Assembly (NCBI GenBank): GCA_028285305.1
Contig: JANQPV010000056.1
Location: 1-64,000, forward strand
Direction of reading: 5' to 3'
From: Alphaproteobacteria bacterium
GTDB taxonomy: Bacteria > Pseudomonadota > Alphaproteobacteria > SMXP01
DNA: 64,000 bases
The notes under the pieces are model-generated. The model ran no database searches. It was not told where the DNA came from and saw nothing but the letters and a program-made list of their open reading frames with translations. Positions 30,204 to 60,609 of this stretch are shown one piece after another. Both the position numbers and the translations under genes were made by a program. Every line of letters starts with the position of its first letter. Position 1 is the first letter of the stretch.

Positions 30204-31538
30204 ATGAAACTCAGTCGATATTTCTTACCCACGCTGAAAGAAACCCCATCCGATGCTCAGATCGCATCGCACCGTCTCATGCTTCGGGCAGGGCTCATTC
30301 GTCAGTCTGCGGCAGGAATCTACACGTGGCTCCCACTGGGGCTGCGTGTGCTCAAAAACATAGAGACCATTGTTCGCGAAGAACAGGGCAAAGCAGGTGC
30401 TGTTGAACTCCTGATGCCAACTCTTCAGTCTGCAGACTTGTGGAGGGAAAGTGGCCGCTACGATGATTATGGCGCGGAAATGCTGCGCATCAAAGATCGC
30501 GGCGATAGAGATCTTCTGTACGGCCCAACGAACGAGGAGCTCATAACCGACATTTTTCGTGGCAGTGTGAAGTCTTACAAGGACTTGCCTTTGAATTTGT
30601 ACCACATTCAATGGAAGTTCAGAGATGAAATTCGGCCGCGCTTTGGGGTGATGCGAGGCCGTGAATTTCTTATGAAAGATGCGTACTCGTTCGATCTCGA
30701 CCGAGAAGGCGCCCGTCGAGCCTACAACAAAATGTTCGCCGCCTACTTACGAACCTTTGATCGCATGGGCCTTAAAGCAATCCCCATGGCCGCAGACACG
30801 GGCCCTATTGGCGGCGATATGAGCCACGAATTTCTTATCCTTGCCGAAACCGGCGAAAGTGAAGTGTTCTGCCACAGGACGTTATTGGACCTTCCGGCCC
30901 CACCGGATGGTCTCGACTATGACAGTGATCTTTCAGCCATCGTCGACGAGAGAACGGCCCTTTATGCGGCCACTGACGAGATGCATGACCAGTCGGCGTT
31001 TGAGGCTCAGGTGGCGGAGGCGGACCGCATATCCGCGAGAGGAATCGAGGTCGGCCATATCTTCTTCTTTGGGACAAAATACTCAGAGGCCATGGGGGCG
31101 ACCGTGCAAGGGCCGGAAGGAAAGCTCATTCCGGTTGAAATGGGGTCCTACGGGATTGGGGTCTCTCGCCTCGCAGGCGCGCTGATAGAGGCGAACCACG
31201 ACAAGGACGGCATCATTTGGCCGGCCTCGGTCGCTCCGTTTGACGTAGGCCTCGTCAATCTCAAACCGGGGGATGCCGCCACCTCGGCCAAATGCGATGA
31301 TCTCTACGAACAGCTCAAGACCGCGGGAATCGAGGTTTTGTGCGATGATACCGACGAGCGCGCAGGGGCCAAGTTTTCACGGATGGATCTCATCGGATTG
31401 CCGCATCAACTCATCGTAGGCCCCAGGGGTCTCGAAAAGAACACAGTTGAACTGAAAGATCGCAGAACCGGAGAACGGCAAGAATTGAGTCCCGAGGCGG
31501 CCATCAATTTTCTTACAAGTCAGAAAGAGCGTGCGTGA
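30204..31538 (+). CDS. proS: Proline--tRNA ligase (short form without editing insert)
   Basis: Class II aminoacyl-tRNA synthetase that charges tRNA-Pro. 444 residues against about 570 for the E. coli form: the YbaK-like editing insertion between motifs 2 and 3 is absent, as is usual in alphaproteobacteria. Seen are the N-terminal [20 protein letters not shown], motif 2 region [20 protein letters not shown], motif 3 region [17 protein letters not shown], and the C-terminal anticodon-binding domain. Its stop overlaps the GTG start of the first LolC/E gene. Confidence 0.95.
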
Positions 31539-32791
31539 GTAGGCCCTTTGCGCCTTATGAGTGGATGCTTGCGATGCGCTACCTTCGTGCACGAAGGAAA
31601 GAGAGCTTCATCTCCGTCATATCCATATTCTCTCTCGTCGGAATAGCCCTGGGTGTGGCGACGTTGATCGTCGTTATCTCGGTGATGAACAGCTGGCATG
31701 TGAAGCTCCTGGATGAAGCGATTAGCTTTTCCGGTCATTTGCGCATTGAAAGTACCCAAGAAAGGGGAATAAGCACCTCGGGAGATCTTGCAGAACGGGT
31801 CGGGACCCTCGAAGGCGTGGCGACCGTAATCCCCGTTATCGAATCAAAGGCGTTGGCATCGGTGAATGGAAACGCGACGGGCGTTGAAGTGCGCGGTGTA
31901 CGGCGGGCAGACCTGGAATCCATTCCGTCTGTATACAACAATCAAACGCTTGGTTCTCTTGAGGCGTTCGATACCGCTGGAGGCCTCTTTGTGCCGAGTA
32001 ATTTGTCCATTTCGCTTCCCGCGTTTCCGGGCAGCTTTGTCACGCTCATCTCCCCCAACGGACCCGTAACCTCTTTCAGCACGGTGCCCAACCGAAAAGC
32101 CTTCCGAGTTGTCGGCAGCTATTCGACCCACGAGATGAGATTCGAGCGTCCCTTCGTCTATCTCCCCTTCAAGGACGCTCAACTCTTTTTCGCGCTGGAA
32201 GACCGGGCTTCCGCCTACAAAGTTATCCTAACGGACAAACAAAACACCGATCAAACAAAGACGGCGGTGCGCGAAGTTCTTCCTGCCGGCCTCGAAGTCC
32301 GGGATTGGAAACAGACCAACGGCACGCTCTGGGGTGTATTGCAAGTTGAAAAGAACATGATGTTCATCATTCTTGCTCTGATCATACTGATAGCGGTTTT
32401 CAATATCGTCTCTGGACTGATTATGTTGGTGAAGGATAAAGGCAACGACATCGCCATATTGCGCAGCATGGGGGCGACGCAGGGAACTGTGATCCGGGTC
32501 TTTTTGATCGCAGGGTCGGCCATCGGGATCGTGGGAACATTTGCCGGTTTTCTTTTGGGCACTGTGATCTCGGTGAACATCGTGTTCATTCAAGAGCAAA
32601 TCCGCAGGATACCTGGCCTGGCCCTCAATGATGCCCAACTCGCGCTCTTGTCCGAACTCTCGACTCGTGTTGAGGTAAGAGAGGTTTCCGCTATCATTCT
32701 CATGTCTCTGTTCTTTTCACTCGTCGCGACAATCTACCCCTCCTGGCGAGCCGGCCATTTGGATCCGGTTGAAGCATTGCGATACGAATAA
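31535..32791 (+). CDS. Lipoprotein-releasing ABC transporter permease, LolC/E family, divergent copy
   Basis: Inner-membrane permease that with LolD extracts outer-membrane lipoproteins and hands them to LolA. 418 residues. The first helix follows [19 protein letters not shown]; a large periplasmic domain (about 45-265) is followed by three C-terminal helices ending in [16 protein letters not shown]. Compared with its neighbour, the cytoplasmic and membrane parts are very similar, but the periplasmic domain is divergent and lacks the usual PRLVMGRQLA-like strand. GTG start overlapping proS by four bases. It may be the partner of the downstream copy, as LolC is to LolE. Confidence 0.88.
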
Positions 32792-32889
32792 GGATTCCAG
32801 AACTTATGATGCAAGCCGGCATTTTCGATCTGACGGGTAAGCAGCGCGCCTTTCGCGCGAACCAGCGGTAGAAGCCGGCCGAGGTCCTT

Positions 32890-34197
32890 ATGCCGTCGCG
32901 CGCCCAAGCCAAAGCATCGTCCGTAAGCGCGGCCAAGTCTGGCAAAGCCTTTGCTCCTTTTGAATGGATGCTCGCCGGACGGTTCCTTCGTGCGCGGAGG
33001 AAAGAGGGATTGGTGTCCGTGTTTTCTGTGTTCTCGCTGATTGGGATCGCGCTCGGCGTGGCCACGCTCATAGCGGTCATGTCGGTGATGAACGGCTTCC
33101 GGATCGAAGTCGTTGAAAAGCTTATGGGATTTAATGGCCACATCCATGTGAACGGCAATGTAGACGGTCGTCTTTACGATTTCGAGCCGCTCCTCGATCG
33201 CTTGAACGAGATCGAAGGCGTTAAGAGAGTTGCTCCGATCGTCCAAGGAATGGTGCTCGCATCTTCAAACATTGAGAGCTCGGGCGTCCTCTTGCGAGGT
33301 TTGCGCCACAAAGACCTGCAATCCTTTGAGATTGTATCGCAGAATCTCGTTGAGGGAACACTCGACGCGGACCCGGTGGATCCCCGGTTGGTTATGGGCC
33401 GCCAATTGGCTACGACGCTAAAGGTGGGAGTGGGCGACGAGATCACCGTCTTATCGCCTGATGGTGCGATAACACCGTTTGGCAGAGTTCCCCGTTCGAA
33501 AGCGTATCAGGTGAGCGCCGTCTTTGAGACGGGCCTGTCGAGTTTTGATGCGGACATCGTGTTTCTGCCTTTTGAAGAGGCGCAGCTCTATCTGAATCTC
33601 CACAACGCGGCGAACACGATTGAAATCACGATCGAAAATCCGCGACAGAATGTGGAGAGCACGATCGGGGAGGTCAAAAAGCGCCTGTTTGAACCTGCGG
33701 ATGTTGTGGACATGACCAACATGGATAATCGGTTCTTTGCGATGTTGCAGGTACAAAGCAATATGATGTTCATGATTCTCATGATGATCATCCTCGTTGC
33801 CGCAATGAATATAGTCTCGGGGCTGATTATGTTGGTGAAGGACAAAGGTCAGGAGATCGCGATATTGCGCAGTATCGGCGCTTCACGAGGTTCCGTCATG
33901 CGGGTCTTCTTGATCGCGGGCTCCACCATCGGTTTCAGCGGGACGTTGCTCGGCGTCGGATTGGGCGCTCTGATTTGCCTCAACATTGAAAGTATACGGC
34001 AGGCTTTACAGGCCGTGCTCGGGATCCAACTCTTTCCGGAAACGATCTATTATCTCTCAGAGCTTCCAGCCCGGATGGATCCGAGCGAAATCGCACTTAT
34101 TGTTGGTCTTTCCCTGTTATGCGCGTTCATGGCAACGCTTTATCCGGCCTGGCGCGCGGCGCGGATGGATCCCGTTGACGCCCTTAGGTACGAATAA
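32890..34197 (+). CDS. lolC: Lipoprotein-releasing ABC transporter permease, LolC/E family, canonical copy
   Basis: 435 residues, with an N-terminal extension of about 20 polar residues before FAPFEWMLAGRFLRARRKE. One N-terminal helix, a periplasmic domain containing VDPRLVMGRQLA, and three C-terminal helices with [23 protein letters not shown] and the end AWRAARMDPVDALRYE. The stretch IYYLSELPARMDPSE is typical of alphaproteobacterial LolC/E, so this copy looks canonical. lolD follows 12 bases later. Whether it should be called LolC or LolE cannot be decided. Confidence 0.9.
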   Translation: MPSRAQAKASSVSAAKSGKAFAPFEWMLAGRFLRARRKEGLVSVFSVFSLIGIALGVATLIAVMSVMNGFRIEVVEKLMGFNGHIHVNGNVDGRLYDFEPLLDRLNEIEGVKRVAPIVQGMVLASSNIESSGVLLRGLRHKDLQSFEIVSQNLVEGTLDADPVDPRLVMGRQLATTLKVGVGDEITVLSPDGAITPFGRVPRSKAYQVSAVFETGLSSFDADIVFLPFEEAQLYLNLHNAANTIEITIENPRQNVESTIGEVKKRLFEPADVVDMTNMDNRFFAMLQVQSNMMFMILMMIILVAAMNIVSGLIMLVKDKGQEIAILRSIGASRGSVMRVFLIAGSTIGFSGTLLGVGLGALICLNIESIRQALQAVLGIQLFPETIYYLSELPARMDPSEIALIVGLSLLCAFMATLYPAWRAARMDPVDALRYE

Positions 34198-34209: not shown

Positions 34210-34920
34210 ATGAAACTTTCAGGAAAACCCGTCTTGGAGCTTAAGGGCGTTACGCGGCATTTCGAGCAAGGGGGCAAGCGACTAGACGTTCTGAAGGGTG
34301 TGAACTTAACGGTTTGGCCCGGCGAGATGATCGCCCTGGTGGGCCCGTCAGGTGCGGGCAAGTCAACGCTCTTACACACGGCCGGCTTACTGGAACGCGC
34401 CGACGCCGGCGAGATCATCATCGAAGGCGTTACCTGCGCGAGTTTGTCCGATCTCGAACTGACCCGGATACGCAGGGACAAAATTGGCTTCATCTATCAG
34501 TTTCATCATTTGCTCCCTGAGTTCTCCGCTCTAGAGAACGTTGTCTTGCCGCAACTGATCGCCGACAAGAACCGCTCCAAGGCGCGCCATCGCGCCACCA
34601 CGCTCCTCTCCCAACTTGGTCTCGACCAGCGGCTCAGCCATCAGCCAATGCAGCTTTCCGGAGGTGAACAACAGCGCGTTGCGATTGCCAGAGCCTTGGC
34701 CAACCGACCGGTTATTTTGCTCGCCGATGAACCGACTGGAAACCTGGATCGCAAGACATCGTCTGCCGTGTTCGGTAACTTGGTTTCCTTGGCAAGAAAC
34801 GAAGGCTTGGCCGCCGTCATTGCAACTCACAATCTCGACCTCGCTAGAGAGATGGACCGCGTCGTTCTGCTGCACGAAGGCCGTTTGATCGATGGCAAAG
34901 ATCTTCTTGTGAAATCGTAG
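34210..34920 (+). CDS. lolD: Lipoprotein-releasing system ATP-binding protein
   Basis: ATPase of the LolCDE-type complex. 236 residues. Walker A GPSGAGKS, signature LSGGEQQRVAIARAL and Walker B VILLADEPTGNLD are intact. Adjacent to two LolC/E permease genes, which supports the Lol assignment over a generic MacB-type exporter. Its stop is only five bases from the stop of the convergent DUF1761 gene. Confidence 0.94.
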   Translation: MKLSGKPVLELKGVTRHFEQGGKRLDVLKGVNLTVWPGEMIALVGPSGAGKSTLLHTAGLLERADAGEIIIEGVTCASLSDLELTRIRRDKIGFIYQFHHLLPEFSALENVVLPQLIADKNRSKARHRATTLLSQLGLDQRLSHQPMQLSGGEQQRVAIARALANRPVILLADEPTGNLDRKTSSAVFGNLVSLARNEGLAAVIATHNLDLAREMDRVVLLHEGRLIDGKDLLVKS

Positions 34921-34936
34921 CCGCATCAATTTGCGG
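34921..34936. terminator. Short hairpin spanning the lolD / DUF1761 convergent ends
   Basis: CCGCA (34921-34925) and TGCGG (34932-34936) flank TCAATT, overlapping the DUF1761 stop codon. A 5-bp stem without a T run; weak evidence for a shared terminator. Confidence 0.3.
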
Positions 34937-35339
34937 ATGCAGCCCAGTTTCCCAACAAAAGTCCTGTAAAGAAATAGCAAAGAGCCGTGTTGCCTGAATC
35001 GATCAAAAAGAGATCAAAACTCGAACGCCTGTAGGCAAACTCTATCATCCGCATAGGAACCGCTGTTCCGAGCCAAACGAGAAGCCCAAGAGCAGCGCCC
35101 GTTTGCCAGTCGAGGAGCCCCCCAACTCCTTCATAGGCATTTAACAACACATCAACGAAGCAACTTCCCAACATCCCAGCGACGAGAATCCAAACTTGCG
35201 TCAAACCGAGTTGTCCGTCCCCGGCCGCTTCGTTTGACCCCTGAGCAAACAGGAGCGGCGAGTACCAGAGACTGCCCAAGCCAACCCACATGACCGCGCA
35301 AAAGGCAATGCCGGCAAGATTAATGTCGAAGAGTTCCAT
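34926..35339 (-). CDS. DUF1761 family membrane protein
   Basis: 137 residues with four predicted transmembrane helices. The family hallmark GLGSLWYSPLLFAQ follows the first helix and LLVWLGTAVPMRMIEFAY lies in the third. Function unknown. Its start codon is 45 bases from the first SOS box of the divergent small gene at 35432, so a shared regulatory region is possible. Confidence 0.75.
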   Translation of the reverse strand: MELFDINLAGIAFCAVMWVGLGSLWYSPLLFAQGSNEAAGDGQLGLTQVWILVAGMLGSCFVDVLLNAYEGVGGLLDWQTGAALGLLVWLGTAVPMRMIEFAYRRSSFDLFLIDSGNTALCYFFTGLLLGNWAASAN

Positions 35340-35374: not shown

Positions 35375-35404
35375 TTGACAAAAGAACACAAAGGGAACAA
35401 CTAT
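35375..35404 (+). promoter_or_regulatory. Putative SOS-regulated promoter of the 35-residue ORF
   Basis: A consensus -35 TTGACA (35375-35380) is followed 18 bases later by a weak -10 AACTAT (35399-35404). The first SOS box lies between the two hexamers, where bound LexA would block RNA polymerase. The -10 choice is uncertain. Confidence 0.55.
35384..35398 (+). promoter_or_regulatory. SOS box 1 (LexA operator), GAACACAAAGGGAAC
   Basis: Perfect GAAC-N7-GAAC, the direct-repeat operator of alphaproteobacterial LexA. It sits between the -35 and -10 elements of the promoter reading toward the small ORF at 35432, and 45 bases from the start of the divergent DUF1761 gene. Confidence 0.8.
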
Positions 35405-35406
35405 GC

Positions 35407-35426
35407 CCCTCTAAGAACATAGAGGG
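35407..35426 (+). repeat. 7-bp inverted repeat over the ribosome-binding site of the SOS ORF
   Basis: CCCTCTA (35407-35413) and TAGAGGG (35420-35426) around AGAACA. The right arm contains the likely ribosome-binding site GAGGG five bases before the ATG, so a transcript starting upstream of 35407 could fold and hide it. The same bases overlap SOS box 2. Confidence 0.5.
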
Positions 35427-35429
35427 AAC
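35415..35429 (+). promoter_or_regulatory. SOS box 2 (LexA operator), GAACATAGAGGGAAC
   Basis: Second perfect GAAC-N7-GAAC, 31 bases (about three helical turns) after box 1 and ending two bases before the ATG at 35432. Two boxes on one face of the helix suggest tight, possibly cooperative LexA repression. Confidence 0.8.
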
Positions 35430-35431
35430 AC

Positions 35432-35539
35432 ATGAAACAGCTCGCAAAAGATACCTTCGCATCGATTGTTTTCGGTATGCTGCTTTGGTCAGCCATCTTG
35501 TGGATATCCATCTTCAACTCGCCCGCCGCCATAGCATAG
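35432..35539 (+). CDS. SOS-controlled 35-residue single-pass membrane peptide (candidate)
   Basis: ATG to TAG, 35 codons. A short basic N terminus (Lys2, Lys6) is followed by one hydrophobic helix at about residues 9-28 with two tryptophans (Trp19, Trp24) and a short polar end NSPAAIA. The positive-inside rule predicts N-in, C-out. GAGGG lies five bases before the ATG, and two perfect SOS boxes and a TTGACA element lie upstream; a hairpin with T5 follows at 35577. By architecture it resembles SOS-induced membrane micro-proteins such as Caulobacter SidA (a 29-residue division inhibitor) or TisB-type toxins; I claim no sequence homology. A division-checkpoint or membrane-stress role is inference. 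It could be missed by annotation because of its length. Confidence 0.65.
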   Translation: MKQLAKDTFASIVFGMLLWSAILWISIFNSPAAIA

Positions 35540-35576
35540 ACCCATCGGATCTGGTTCTTGGGGAAAACGGTTCGAC

Positions 35577-35595
35577 GGGCACATCCGCCCTTTTT
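35577..35595 (+). terminator. Candidate intrinsic terminator after the SOS ORF
   Basis: GGGC (35577-35580), six-base loop, GCCC (35587-35590) and then TTTTT (35591-35595), 37 bases after the stop of the 35-residue ORF and about 105 bases before dnaE. The stem is short, so termination may be partial. Confidence 0.45.
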
Positions 35596-35701: not shown

Positions 35702-38700
35702 GTGACTGTTGAACACATAACGGATCAAAGCAATTGTGAGGGCAGGCCCTTCATTCATTTACGCACGCGCACAGCATATTCTCTTTCGGAAGGGGCAATA
35801 ACACCCGGCGCCTGCGTCAATCTCTGCCTTCAGAACGCCATACCGGCCCTAGGGGTGACGGACTCCAACAATCTCTTTGGTGCGCTTGAGATATCGACCA
35901 AACTTGCTTCGGCGGGCGTTCAGCCCATCATCGGTTGCACGCTGTCGATCGATTTGGGTCGATCTCGCTCCGACCGGATCCAAAGCCGGAAAAGCGCACG
36001 TGGCGACGAGCACGCGTATCGTCCGCTCGCGCTGTTGAGTAAGACGAGGAACGGCTTTGAAAACTTGATGCAGCTCTCAAGCGAGGCCTACGTCAAAGGC
36101 AAAGAAAGCGGAGTCCCTCATGTCTCGATCGCCGACCTTCGCCGTTGGCAAGGGGGCTTGCTCGCCTTGACCGGAGGACGGCTTGGCGCCCTCGACTATC
36201 TCCTCAAGAGTAGAGGCCCCGATCACGCTGCCGAATTTCTCAAGCAAATCGAGCCCCTGTTCGAGGGGCATCTTTACATAGAAGTGCAACGCCACTTGGA
36301 CGGTGTGAGTGATGAAACTGAAGAACACCTGCTCGGTTTTGCTTACGATCGAGACTTACCCCTTGTCGCTACCAATGAGCCGTTCTTTTCTACGCGAGAG
36401 ATGGCTGACGCCCACGACGCGCTGCTTTGTATCGCCGACGGCGCGTATCTGAACCAGGCCGATCGCCGCCGGTTGACCCCAGAGCACTATTTCAAATCGG
36501 CTGCGGAGATGAACGCCCTCTTTGCAGATCTGCCCGAGGCTCTGGAAGCAACGGCGGAGATAGCGCAGCGGTGCAGCTATATGCCGGAAACGCGCGACCC
36601 GATTTTGCCGAGCTTCGGAAGCGGCGCCGACGAAGCCCAAGAATTGCGCCGTCAAGCTGAGGCCGGTCTAAAAGACCGCCTCGCGTCGGGAATCGGCCTG
36701 GCCGCTCCTGAAGCGGACTATTGGGACCGTCTGCAGCACGAACTCGACATCATTATTCGAATGGAATTTCCCGGCTACTTTTTGATTGTGGCCGACTTCA
36801 TTAAGTGGTCGAAAGCCAACGATATTCCGGTCGGGCCCGGCCGTGGTTCGGGCGCAGGCTCGATTGTTGCCTGGGCGCTGACAATCACGGATTTGGACCC
36901 ATTGCGCTTTGCACTCCTTTTTGAGCGCTTTCTCAACCCCGAGCGCGTGTCCATGCCGGACTTTGATATCGATTTTTGCCAGGATCGCCGCGACGAGGTC
37001 ATCCATTACGTGCAAGAAAAGTACGGACACGATCGTGTCGCTCAAATCATCACGTTTGGAAAACTGCAAGCACGGGCTGTTGTCCGCGATGTCGGACGGG
37101 TTATGAGCTTACCGTACGGACAGGTGGATCGGATCTCGAAACTCATTCCGAGCGATCCGGCAAATCCGACCTCCCTGGGAGAGGCCGTCGAACAGGTCCC
37201 TGAATTGCGCGCAGAGATGGAGCAAGATGACACCATCGATAATCTCATCACGACCGCTCTGAAGCTCGAAGGGCTGTATCGTCATGCGTCCACCCACGCC
37301 GCAGGTCTTGTGATCGGTGACCGGCCGCTCGAAGAACTGATCCCCCTTTACCGCGATCCCCGTTCAAACATGCCCGTGACCCAATACAATCTGAATTGGG
37401 TGGAACCGGCTGGTCTCGTAAAGTTCGATTTCCTCGGCCTAAAGACACTGACGGTGCTGCAGAAGGCGTGCGAATTGCTGAAACGCTCCGGGGTCCAAGT
37501 GAATTTGGAGCACATCCCGTTCGATGATGAAAAGACCTATCAGATGCTCTCGGCCGGCGATACAATTGGCGTTTTCCAGTTTGAGAGCTCGGGCATGCAA
37601 GATCTCTTGCGTCAGGCAGGTCCGACAAACTTTGAAGATCTGATTGCTCTCGTGGCGTTGTTCCGACCCGGCCCTATGGAGAACATCCCTAAATATTTGG
37701 CCTGCAAGCACGGCGATGAGGACCCTGAGTTCTTGCACGAGTCCCTGTCTCAAGTCGTCGCCGACACCTACGGCGTCATTATCTACCAGGAACAGGTCAT
37801 GCAAATCGCGCAAATCCTGTCGGGCTACAGCCTCGGAGAAGCGGATCTTCTTCGCCGGGCTATGGGCAAAAAGAAGAAGGAGGAGATGGACCGGCAAAAA
37901 GATCGATTTGTTCGTGGTGCTCTAGAAAACGGCGTAGACCAAGATCGCGCCGAGTACATATTTGAGTTGGTCGGAAAATTCGCCGGATACGGATTCAACA
38001 AAAGCCACTCGGCTGCCTATGCACTGCTTGCCTATCAAACGGCCTACCTAAAGGCCAATTATCCCGTGGAGTTTTTGGCGGCACTCATGTGTTACGATAA
38101 ATCGAACACAGACAAACTGCAGATCATTTGCCAAGAAGCGGTCCGCAATGAAATCGAGCTCGTCCCGCCTGACATCAACGCCTCCGAGACGGATTTCACG
38201 ACCCAGGACGGCAAGATTGTCTACGCCCTATCCGCAATCAAGAATGTGGGCACGACTGCGGTTTCTCAGATTGTCAATGAGCGCCACTCGTCCGGACCCT
38301 ATACCGACCTGTTCGACTTCGCGCGGCGTTTGGATACGACCAGCGCGAACCGGCGGCTCATTGAGAACCTAGCCAAGGCAGGGGCCCTCGACTCAGTTTG
38401 GCCCCACCGTGCCCAAAGTTTCGCAGAAGCCGACTTTCTGCTGCAGTACGCCGACCACCAGCGCCGCGAACGCGAAAGTTCGCAATCGAATCTCTTTGGC
38501 GAAGCGGCGGTGGATTTACCAACACCAGACTTGCCCAAACATCCTCGTTGGACCTCAATCGACCAATTGGACAAGGAAAAAGAAGCCATCGGCTTTTTTC
38601 TATCCGGCCATCCGTTGGAGACGTATCAGACCGTCCTGGAACAAGAAGGTGTGTTGACGTTCAAAGCGTTGAGCAGCTCTCCCAACCATGACACCCGGAT

Positions 38701-39298
38701 CGTGAAGTTGGCCGGGGCTGTCGTTTACGCGCGAACACGCCCCTCTCGCAACTCAGATAAGCCAATCACGTTTGTTGCTCTTTCAGACGCAAGCGATAGC
38801 TACGAACTGATCGCGTTCTCTGATGTGGTTGAGACCCACCGCGACCTCTTAGAACCCGGCACTCTGGTCATGACGACCGCCGCCGTAAGGTGGGAGGAGG
38901 GTGCTCCCAAGCTCTCGGCCAAGTCGTTTCGCCGCCTGGACGATGTAGACGGAGAGGCGGCCCACGGTTTGCGGGTCTTTGTCCAGTCGCCCGAGGCGAT
39001 AGAGGACATTCGAGTTGGGTTGGAGCAGGCGCGCCAAGCCTCCCGATCGGAACGCTGCGGGCCGGTCCATTTGATTGTATTGGCGGCCGAAACTGACCCG
39101 CAGACGGCGTGCAGCGATACAGGCAAAGAAACCAGTGATCCCAGCCCTCGGCAACGCTATGAAATTGAGATTACATTGGGCCAGTCCTTCCCGGTTCACT
39201 CCCGGGTCAAGAGCGCTTTGAAGGCGCTTCCCGGCGTGATCGACGTTCAGCAGCTTAAGAGGTCTCTGAACGCGTCGGGAAGCATAGCGGGACCATGA
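35702..39298 (+). CDS. dnaE: DNA polymerase III alpha subunit (DnaE1)
   Basis: Replicative polymerase catalytic subunit. 1198 residues. An N-terminal PHP domain (HLRTRTAYSLSEGAITPG) has lost the histidine pattern of active PHP domains. The polymerase core has GPGRGSGAGSIVAWAL and the catalytic aspartates in MPDFDIDFCQDRRDE; FAGYGFNKSHSAAYALLAYQT is also typical. An OB domain and beta-binding C-terminal region follow. The size and lolD-linked context point to DnaE1, not the error-prone DnaE2. The start is a GTG with GAGAAG upstream; the preceding 162 bases separate it from the SOS ORF, and its own promoter was not identified. Confidence 0.95.
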   Translation: MTVEHITDQSNCEGRPFIHLRTRTAYSLSEGAITPGACVNLCLQNAIPALGVTDSNNLFGALEISTKLASAGVQPIIGCTLSIDLGRSRSDRIQSRKSARGDEHAYRPLALLSKTRNGFENLMQLSSEAYVKGKESGVPHVSIADLRRWQGGLLALTGGRLGALDYLLKSRGPDHAAEFLKQIEPLFEGHLYIEVQRHLDGVSDETEEHLLGFAYDRDLPLVATNEPFFSTREMADAHDALLCIADGAYLNQADRRRLTPEHYFKSAAEMNALFADLPEALEATAEIAQRCSYMPETRDPILPSFGSGADEAQELRRQAEAGLKDRLASGIGLAAPEADYWDRLQHELDIIIRMEFPGYFLIVADFIKWSKANDIPVGPGRGSGAGSIVAWALTITDLDPLRFALLFERFLNPERVSMPDFDIDFCQDRRDEVIHYVQEKYGHDRVAQIITFGKLQARAVVRDVGRVMSLPYGQVDRISKLIPSDPANPTSLGEAVEQVPELRAEMEQDDTIDNLITTALKLEGLYRHASTHAAGLVIGDRPLEELIPLYRDPRSNMPVTQYNLNWVEPAGLVKFDFLGLKTLTVLQKACELLKRSGVQVNLEHIPFDDEKTYQMLSAGDTIGVFQFESSGMQDLLRQAGPTNFEDLIALVALFRPGPMENIPKYLACKHGDEDPEFLHESLSQVVADTYGVIIYQEQVMQIAQILSGYSLGEADLLRRAMGKKKKEEMDRQKDRFVRGALENGVDQDRAEYIFELVGKFAGYGFNKSHSAAYALLAYQTAYLKANYPVEFLAALMCYDKSNTDKLQIICQEAVRNEIELVPPDINASETDFTTQDGKIVYALSAIKNVGTTAVSQIVNERHSSGPYTDLFDFARRLDTTSANRRLIENLAKAGALDSVWPHRAQSFAEADFLLQYADHQRRERESSQSNLFGEAAVDLPTPDLPKHPRWTSIDQLDKEKEAIGFFLSGHPLETYQTVLEQEGVLTFKALSSSPNHDTRIVKLAGAVVYARTRPSRNSDKPITFVALSDASDSYELIAFSDVVETHRDLLEPGTLVMTTAAVRWEEGAPKLSAKSFRRLDDVDGEAAHGLRVFVQSPEAIEDIRVGLEQARQASRSERCGPVHLIVLAAETDPQTACSDTGKETSDPSPRQRYEIEITLGQSFPVHSRVKSALKALPGVIDVQQLKRSLNASGSIAGP

Positions 39299-59811: not shown

Positions 59812-60528
59812 CTAGTACCTTCGAATGAGGCCGACGAGGCGCCCCTGGATTTTGACCCGGTCGGCCCCGAAGATCATGGTTTCGTAGGCTGGGTTGGCTG
59901 CTTCTAGAGCCACGGAAGATTCGCCCTTTTTGCGAAGTCTCTTGAGGGTTGCTTCTTCGTCGTCAACCAACGCAACCACGATATCTCCGTTGGCGGCGCT
60001 GTCGCCGCGATTGATCAAAGCCAAATCGCCATCCAAAATCCCGGCATCTTTCATGGAATCCCCGCGCACTTCGAGTACGTAGTGATCACCGCTCGCCAGA
60101 AGTTCGTTCGGCACACGGATCGTATCGAGTTCATTTTGAAGCGCCTCAATGGGCGTGCCGGCCGCAATGCGCCCAACGATCTTAAGCTCCGTCGCTGCCT
60201 CAGAACCCGCACCTTCGCCTCCAACCGATTGCCGGTGGCCCAGATCTCCCTCAATGACACTGGGACGAAAACCTTTCTCTCGGGGACGAACGGCACGCAG
60301 ATCATTAGCTACATCATCGGGCAGACGGACAACTTCAATCGCCCGTGCCCGGTGAGCCAGCCTGCGAATAAAGCCCCGTTCAACCAGGGCCGAAATCAAA
60401 CGATGAATGCCGGACTTGGATTTGAGGTCCAAAGCATCTTTCATTTCGTCAAAGGAAGGGGCGATCCCGGTTTCCTGGATTCGCTCATGAAGAAAGAGCA
60501 GGAGCTCCTTTTGCTTTTTGGTCAGCAT
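59812..60528 (-). CDS. lexA: LexA repressor, self-cleaving SOS regulator
   Basis: 238 residues. The N-terminal winged helix-turn-helix ([17 protein letters not shown], then [16 protein letters not shown] as recognition region) is followed by a linker and the S24 peptidase domain. The autocleavage site is Ala123-Gly124 ([10 protein letters not shown]), with Ser158 (RGDSMKDAG) and Lys196 as the catalytic pair. RecA-stimulated self-cleavage would induce SOS genes. The promoter carries its own SOS box, and the only other perfect boxes noticed in this window precede the 35-residue ORF at 35432. Confidence 0.96.
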
Positions 60529-60594: not shown

Positions 60595-60609
60595 GTTCTA
60601 CTTTAGTTC
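60595..60609 (-). promoter_or_regulatory. SOS box of lexA, GAACTAAAGTAGAAC
   Basis: Perfect GAAC-N7-GAAC on the minus strand, overlapping the lexA -10 element. It gives an internal reference for the operator motif in this genome. A degenerate second copy (GAAC-N7-CAAC, 60568-60582, plus strand) is closer to the gene. Confidence 0.85.

Follow-up and report, generated by a model that had tools for sequence, protein, structure and literature searches.

A putative SidA-type SOS microprotein gene upstream of dnaE in an alphaproteobacterium, and related peptides across the class

Short DNA damage-induced membrane proteins

To our knowledge, a division stop after DNA damage is well known, among Alphaproteobacteria that lack SulA, only for Caulobacter. 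SidA of Caulobacter has a published length of 29 amino acids (aa); it blocks division via FtsW and also contacts FtsN, and the Z-ring is not dispersed (PMC4211646). DidA of C. crescentus, too, is small, spans the membrane once, inhibits the divisome and is induced by DNA damage. However, it is 71 aa in length, is induced by DriD and not by LexA, and is encoded at another locus. In Gram-positive bacteria, YneA, SosA and ChiZ are SOS-induced single-pass division inhibitors that act on the septal wall synthesis complex. They are larger than the 35-aa peptide described here. TisB of E. coli is a very short SOS-induced membrane peptide whose membrane helix is charged and amphipathic. DinQ of E. coli is likewise very short, SOS-induced and membrane-located (PMC3567139). 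TisB and DinQ differ from the unit described here in that they act on the membrane and have antisense RNAs as a further control, and they show no relation to it by locus.

The unit upstream of dnaE

The window, i.e. the whole 64,000-nucleotide stretch of alphaproteobacterial DNA that was analysed, carries a unit between a lolD-type gene and dnaE. Its features are as follows (L010 and L212 are the corresponding loci of two relatives).

35375..35380, + strand: -35-like TTGACA, 9 nt 5′ of operator 1 (from the sequence; TTGAC-like elements occur in homologous units)
35384..35398, + strand: putative LexA operator 1, GAACACAAAGGGAAC, between the -35 and the expected -10 (top matrix score in the window)
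35415..35429, + strand: putative LexA operator 2, GAACATAGAGGGAAC, which includes the Shine-Dalgarno sequence (second matrix score; layout as in L010 and L212)
35422..35426, + strand: Shine-Dalgarno sequence GAGGG inside operator 2 (from the sequence; GAGGAG in L010 and L212)
35432..35539, + strand: 35-codon open reading frame (ORF), predicted membrane microprotein with a single pass, assigned to the wider SidA family (translation, hydropathy, AlphaFold2, profile rank)
35577..35595, + strand: weak 4-bp hairpin (GGGC/GCCC) followed by T5, a doubtful terminator (folding, terminator scan)

A preliminary description, made from the sequence alone, had pointed out the TTGACA, the two exact GAAC-N7-GAAC boxes, the GAGGG as ribosome-binding site, and the ORF that begins two bases past the second box. 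All are present as described. The ORF starts with ATG at 35432, ends with TAG at 35537-35539, and has an intact reading frame; its product is MKQLAKDTFASIVFGMLLWSAILWISIFNSPAAIA. The single hydrophobic helix and basic N terminus proposed for the peptide are also borne out. Residues 9-27 form a hydrophobic helix (Kyte-Doolittle 2.11) that is free of internal charges and whose hydrophobic moment is low (0.08), and the AlphaFold2 model is a single helix spanning residues 2-29 (mean pLDDT 89). The N terminus is predicted to lie on the inner side of the membrane, because it is basic and the positive-inside rule applies. The hairpin and T5 reported after the ORF fared less well: the 4-bp stem and the T5 exist, but the terminator scan gave no call at this position and the stem is not more stable than those of shuffled sequences.

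The preliminary description held that twin exact boxes beside a start codon are very unlikely by chance. The bare motif GAAC-N7-GAAC occurs six times in the window against 3.1 expected, and 220 times genome-wide against 266 for the reversed pattern. On its own the motif is thus not rare, and what counts for the boxes is their spacing, their spacer and their conservation. A LexA-box matrix was derived from 141 boxes that belong to homologous units in other lineages. With this matrix the two boxes rank first and second among all 15-mers on both strands of the window (scores of 19.4 and 18.2; training mean 22.6), although exact cores served as its training set, which means that the core is rewarded by construction and the remainder of the score comes from the A-rich spacer.

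The leader at 35405-35428 can form a hairpin in which the Shine-Dalgarno sequence is paired (-10.9 kcal/mol, z -2.3). This hairpin is strong in the window, weaker in L010 and missing in L212, and masking of the Shine-Dalgarno sequence was therefore not adopted as a mechanism.

Neighbouring genes and the SOS core of the genome

The genes that bear on the unit are the following.

34210..34920, + strand: lolD-type ABC ATPase, 5′ neighbour, also present in Caulobacter and in genome G003 (best match LolD)
35702..39298, + strand: dnaE, for the alpha subunit of the replicative DNA polymerase III; conserved neighbour on the 3′ side (NF004226, 1392.6 bits; synteny)
59812..60528, - strand: lexA, the likely repressor (TIGR00498 above cut-off; Pfam LexA_DNA_bind and Peptidase_S24)
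60595..60609, - strand: LexA box of lexA, GAACTAAAGTAGAAC, 66 nt 5′ of the lexA ATG (motif scan)

The recA gene of the same genome has the box GAACATAAGAAGAAC upstream. As lexA and recA both have GAAC-N7-GAAC boxes, the SOS core of this genome uses the same box type as the unit. SulA had been suspected to be missing in this lineage; its domain, PF03846, was not found in the genome and was detected in the E. coli control. An FtsW homologue is encoded in the genome.

Other aspects of the gene neighbourhood can be mentioned. A DUF1761 membrane protein gene (34926-35339, minus strand) points away from the SidA-like unit; its place in Caulobacter is occupied by a nucleoside hydrolase gene. Two tandem FtsX/MacB-type permease genes (LolC/LolE-like; 31535-34197) lie ahead of lolD. 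The lexA gene is ∼21 kb downstream of dnaE, and in C. crescentus lexA (CC1902) and dnaE (CC1926) are likewise near each other, 24 locus numbers apart.

Relatives within the family

A single-sequence search with the window ORF in the same order found one relative only, because the order comprises five genomes. Genome G003 (locus L010) encodes the peptide MKQIVQDCLALVVLGGCFWTCLLWMQLAEAGALS with two boxes, within the lolD-dnaE interval, and genome G001 (locus L212, at the end of a contig) encodes MARIIEAHIIEDCLAALTLSAFLGALLFWSALAEAALVG, which likewise has two boxes. In the window, L010 and L212, which represent three genera of one family, TTGAC lies 5′ of box 1 and a single-helix peptide is encoded downstream. 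In all three, box 2 holds the Shine-Dalgarno sequence and ends 2-4 nt before the ATG. Operator 2 and the ribosome-binding site are one sequence here, and the operator is therefore also constrained as a ribosome-binding site. Conservation of frame, boxes and position in relatives, which the preliminary description had proposed as a check, is clearly evident in these two loci and at dnaE loci across the class.

Distribution across the Alphaproteobacteria

Regions upstream of dnaE were surveyed in about 170 alphaproteobacteria, and 167 were scored for boxes. A sense-strand box is present between -650 and -60 of dnaE in 48 of the 167 regions; the reversed control CAAG-N7-CAAG is found in none, and boxes with N6 or N8 spacing in four and three, respectively. 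At 47 loci an ORF of 26-47 aa with one hydrophobic helix follows shortly 3′ of the box, and the ORF of a further box-bearing locus (L112) was recovered by profile. Of 168 homologous units, 126 have a TTGAC-like element in the 22 nt that precede the first box, most often at -9 to -12; among control 22-mers the share is 10.5%. Loci L110, L176 and L194 display an additional GAAC-N7-GAAC 500-550 nt upstream of dnaE, separate from the short-ORF box, which may serve another gene.

The dnaE-linked ORFs align nearly gap-free and share a short N terminus, a [RKQE][DEN] motif, and a helix rich in A, G and F, often with W. A profile of these ORFs detects 51 forward-strand ORFs at E<0.01, and none on reverse strands or in shuffled sequences. 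A whole-genome profile search, blind to box and dnaE, was positive in 43 of 387 alphaproteobacterial genomes. All 32 inspected profile-match loci that contain dnaE have the ORF upstream of dnaE together with an exact box, among them all 20 from non-training genomes. When the profile was trained without the window's family, the window ORF outscored every other of the 1019 ORFs in the window (E=1.7e-5; next, 0.86). A few weak matches, L206 and L217 among them, have neither box nor dnaE. The sole match outside the class in a phylum sample (G632; 56 aa, no box, no dnaE in the locus) was taken as a false positive.

Many alphaproteobacterial lineages show nothing at dnaE. Neither box nor ORF is found upstream of dnaE in L104, L113, L118, L143, L159, L168, L173 and L179, which belong to Pelagibius, Azospirillum, Skermanella and Rhodobacterales. 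In such lineages the ORF may have been lost, moved or replaced.

Selection on the protein

In genus g237 the ORF is present in 80 of 80 genomes, and its peptide is shared with named Bradyrhizobium loci. Every one of the 49 distinct coding sequences is 32 codons long, and dN/dS is 0.114. Variation is highest at third codon positions (0.334, compared with 0.026 at second positions), and an exact box is present in 54 of 54. Judged by the low dN/dS, the fixed length and the most variable third positions, the ORF product is a protein under purifying selection in this relative genus.

That a chance ORF happens to stand beside chance boxes is hardly credible: the bare motif is common enough to allow it, but conservation across genera and orders, selection, and the leave-clade-out profile match refute this explanation. 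It can also be asked whether the boxes serve dnaE; the replicative polymerase would then be under LexA control, and the ORF would be a by-product or encode a leader peptide. The dnaE gene follows the ORF on the same strand in all profile-match loci that contain it, and the weak terminator between the two makes read-through possible. This reading is nonetheless very unlikely in view of the strong protein-level selection in g237 and the ORF's own Shine-Dalgarno sequence. In addition, the distance from the box to the start of the ORF is 20-50 nt in most units, and that to dnaE roughly 130-500 nt.

Relation to Caulobacter SidA

In Caulobacteraceae, 128 of 149 genomes have a dnaE-linked ORF, and nearly all the ORFs examined encode 29 aa. 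The gene order in Caulobacter is lolD, inosine-uridine nucleoside hydrolase, ORF, dnaE. Published C. crescentus locus tags are consistent with the order hydrolase-ORF-dnaE: CCNA_02005 is the hydrolase (PMC3667746), CCNA_02004 is sidA (PMC10769358) and CC1926 is dnaE (PMC1839093). The Caulobacter ORF (L301) scores 71.3 bits against the NCBIfam SidA equivalog model NF033228 (cut-off 35). By its length, gene order, locus tags and model score, the dnaE-linked ORF of Caulobacter is SidA.

The window peptide gives no match to NF033228, and a profile built from Caulobacteraceae only assigns it E=2.7. Brevundimonas, itself a member of the Caulobacteraceae, also falls under the NF033228 cut-off (23.9 versus 35 bits). 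The relationship appears to run through intermediates. A profile built without Caulobacteraceae recovers every Caulobacteraceae sequence, 15 of 15, at E values between 3.6e-10 and 0.0033. Profile-profile comparison gave 96.2% for non-Caulobacteraceae versus SidA and 96.4% for the window's family versus non-Caulobacteraceae, compared with 80% for the window's family versus SidA directly. Accordingly, as neither the curated model nor the Caulobacteraceae-only profile matches it, the window peptide is here called a divergent homologue: it would belong to the wider dnaE-linked family of which SidA is a part, outside the curated SidA model. NF033228 matches one of 377 alphaproteobacteria, versus 43 of 387 for the new profile; existing family models thus overlook nearly all dnaE-linked candidates. 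In a literature search, mainly of papers available without subscription, no report of SidA relatives outside Caulobacter was found.

The window unit thus resembles the sidA locus in several ways. It encodes a very short protein, predicted to have one transmembrane helix, directly upstream of a dnaE gene transcribed in the same direction; lolD is on the 5′ side, and direct-repeat LexA boxes, here two exact predicted ones that score best in the window, lie just upstream. Profile comparison links the two by way of intermediates. They differ in that the window peptide is 35 aa and not 29 aa in length, has an additional C-terminal tail, shows low identity to SidA and lies below the SidA model, and in that the second operator ends 2 nt from the ATG and includes the Shine-Dalgarno sequence.

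The preliminary description had left the choice between a SidA-type checkpoint peptide and a TisB-like membrane effector. A real SOS-induced peptide of the TisB/DinQ kind would depolarize the membrane and slow growth, with the divisome not blocked. Equal size class, a single helix and LexA control suit this reading, and the target cannot be read from sequence. It is unlikely, however, since the charged, amphipathic helix of TisB is not seen in the uncharged, low-moment helix of the window peptide, a structured leader is not conserved (the hairpin is missing in L212), and position, profile chain and operator tie the peptide to the Caulobacter sidA gene. The SidA-type reading is thus favoured over the TisB-like one by the helix, the homology through intermediates and the common locus, and is further supported by the conserved frame and boxes and by the identity of the Caulobacter gene in the same place.

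Proposed mechanism

The unit is probably a SidA-type SOS checkpoint gene, and inhibition of division under LexA control is the most likely role of its peptide. For the window unit, binding by LexA, induction, insertion into the membrane, the target FtsW and the arrest of division are inferred here from its sequence and its relatives. In the undamaged cell, LexA on both operators would silence the gene. The operator 1 site is within the promoter, and LexA there would block it; the operator 2 site would cover the leader and Shine-Dalgarno sequence. After DNA damage, activated RecA would lead to LexA cleavage, the gene would be released and the 35-aa peptide made. The peptide would insert in the inner membrane as a single helix with its N terminus on the inner side, and most likely keep FtsW and the rest of the late divisome inactive for as long as repair takes, as SidA does in Caulobacter. 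Target specificity is hard to judge, because a short hydrophobic helix offers little sequence.

Concluding remarks

Rather than being peculiar to Caulobacter, SidA is probably a single branch of an old family of alphaproteobacterial peptides that stop division under the control of LexA and stand in the place of SulA. Such a family would have been passed down next to dnaE in lineages that include Caulobacterales, Hyphomicrobiales, Parvularculaceae and the PS1 type, with operator and ribosome-binding site as one sequence in the window's family. Candidate inhibitor genes can now be listed for rhizobia, Bradyrhizobium, Parvularculaceae and others, and every one of them lies at the same place, which is simple to inspect. 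The constant linkage to the gene of the replicative polymerase raises a new question. The presence of dnaE-linked related peptides in many Alphaproteobacteria suggests an old and widespread damage-triggered division stop.
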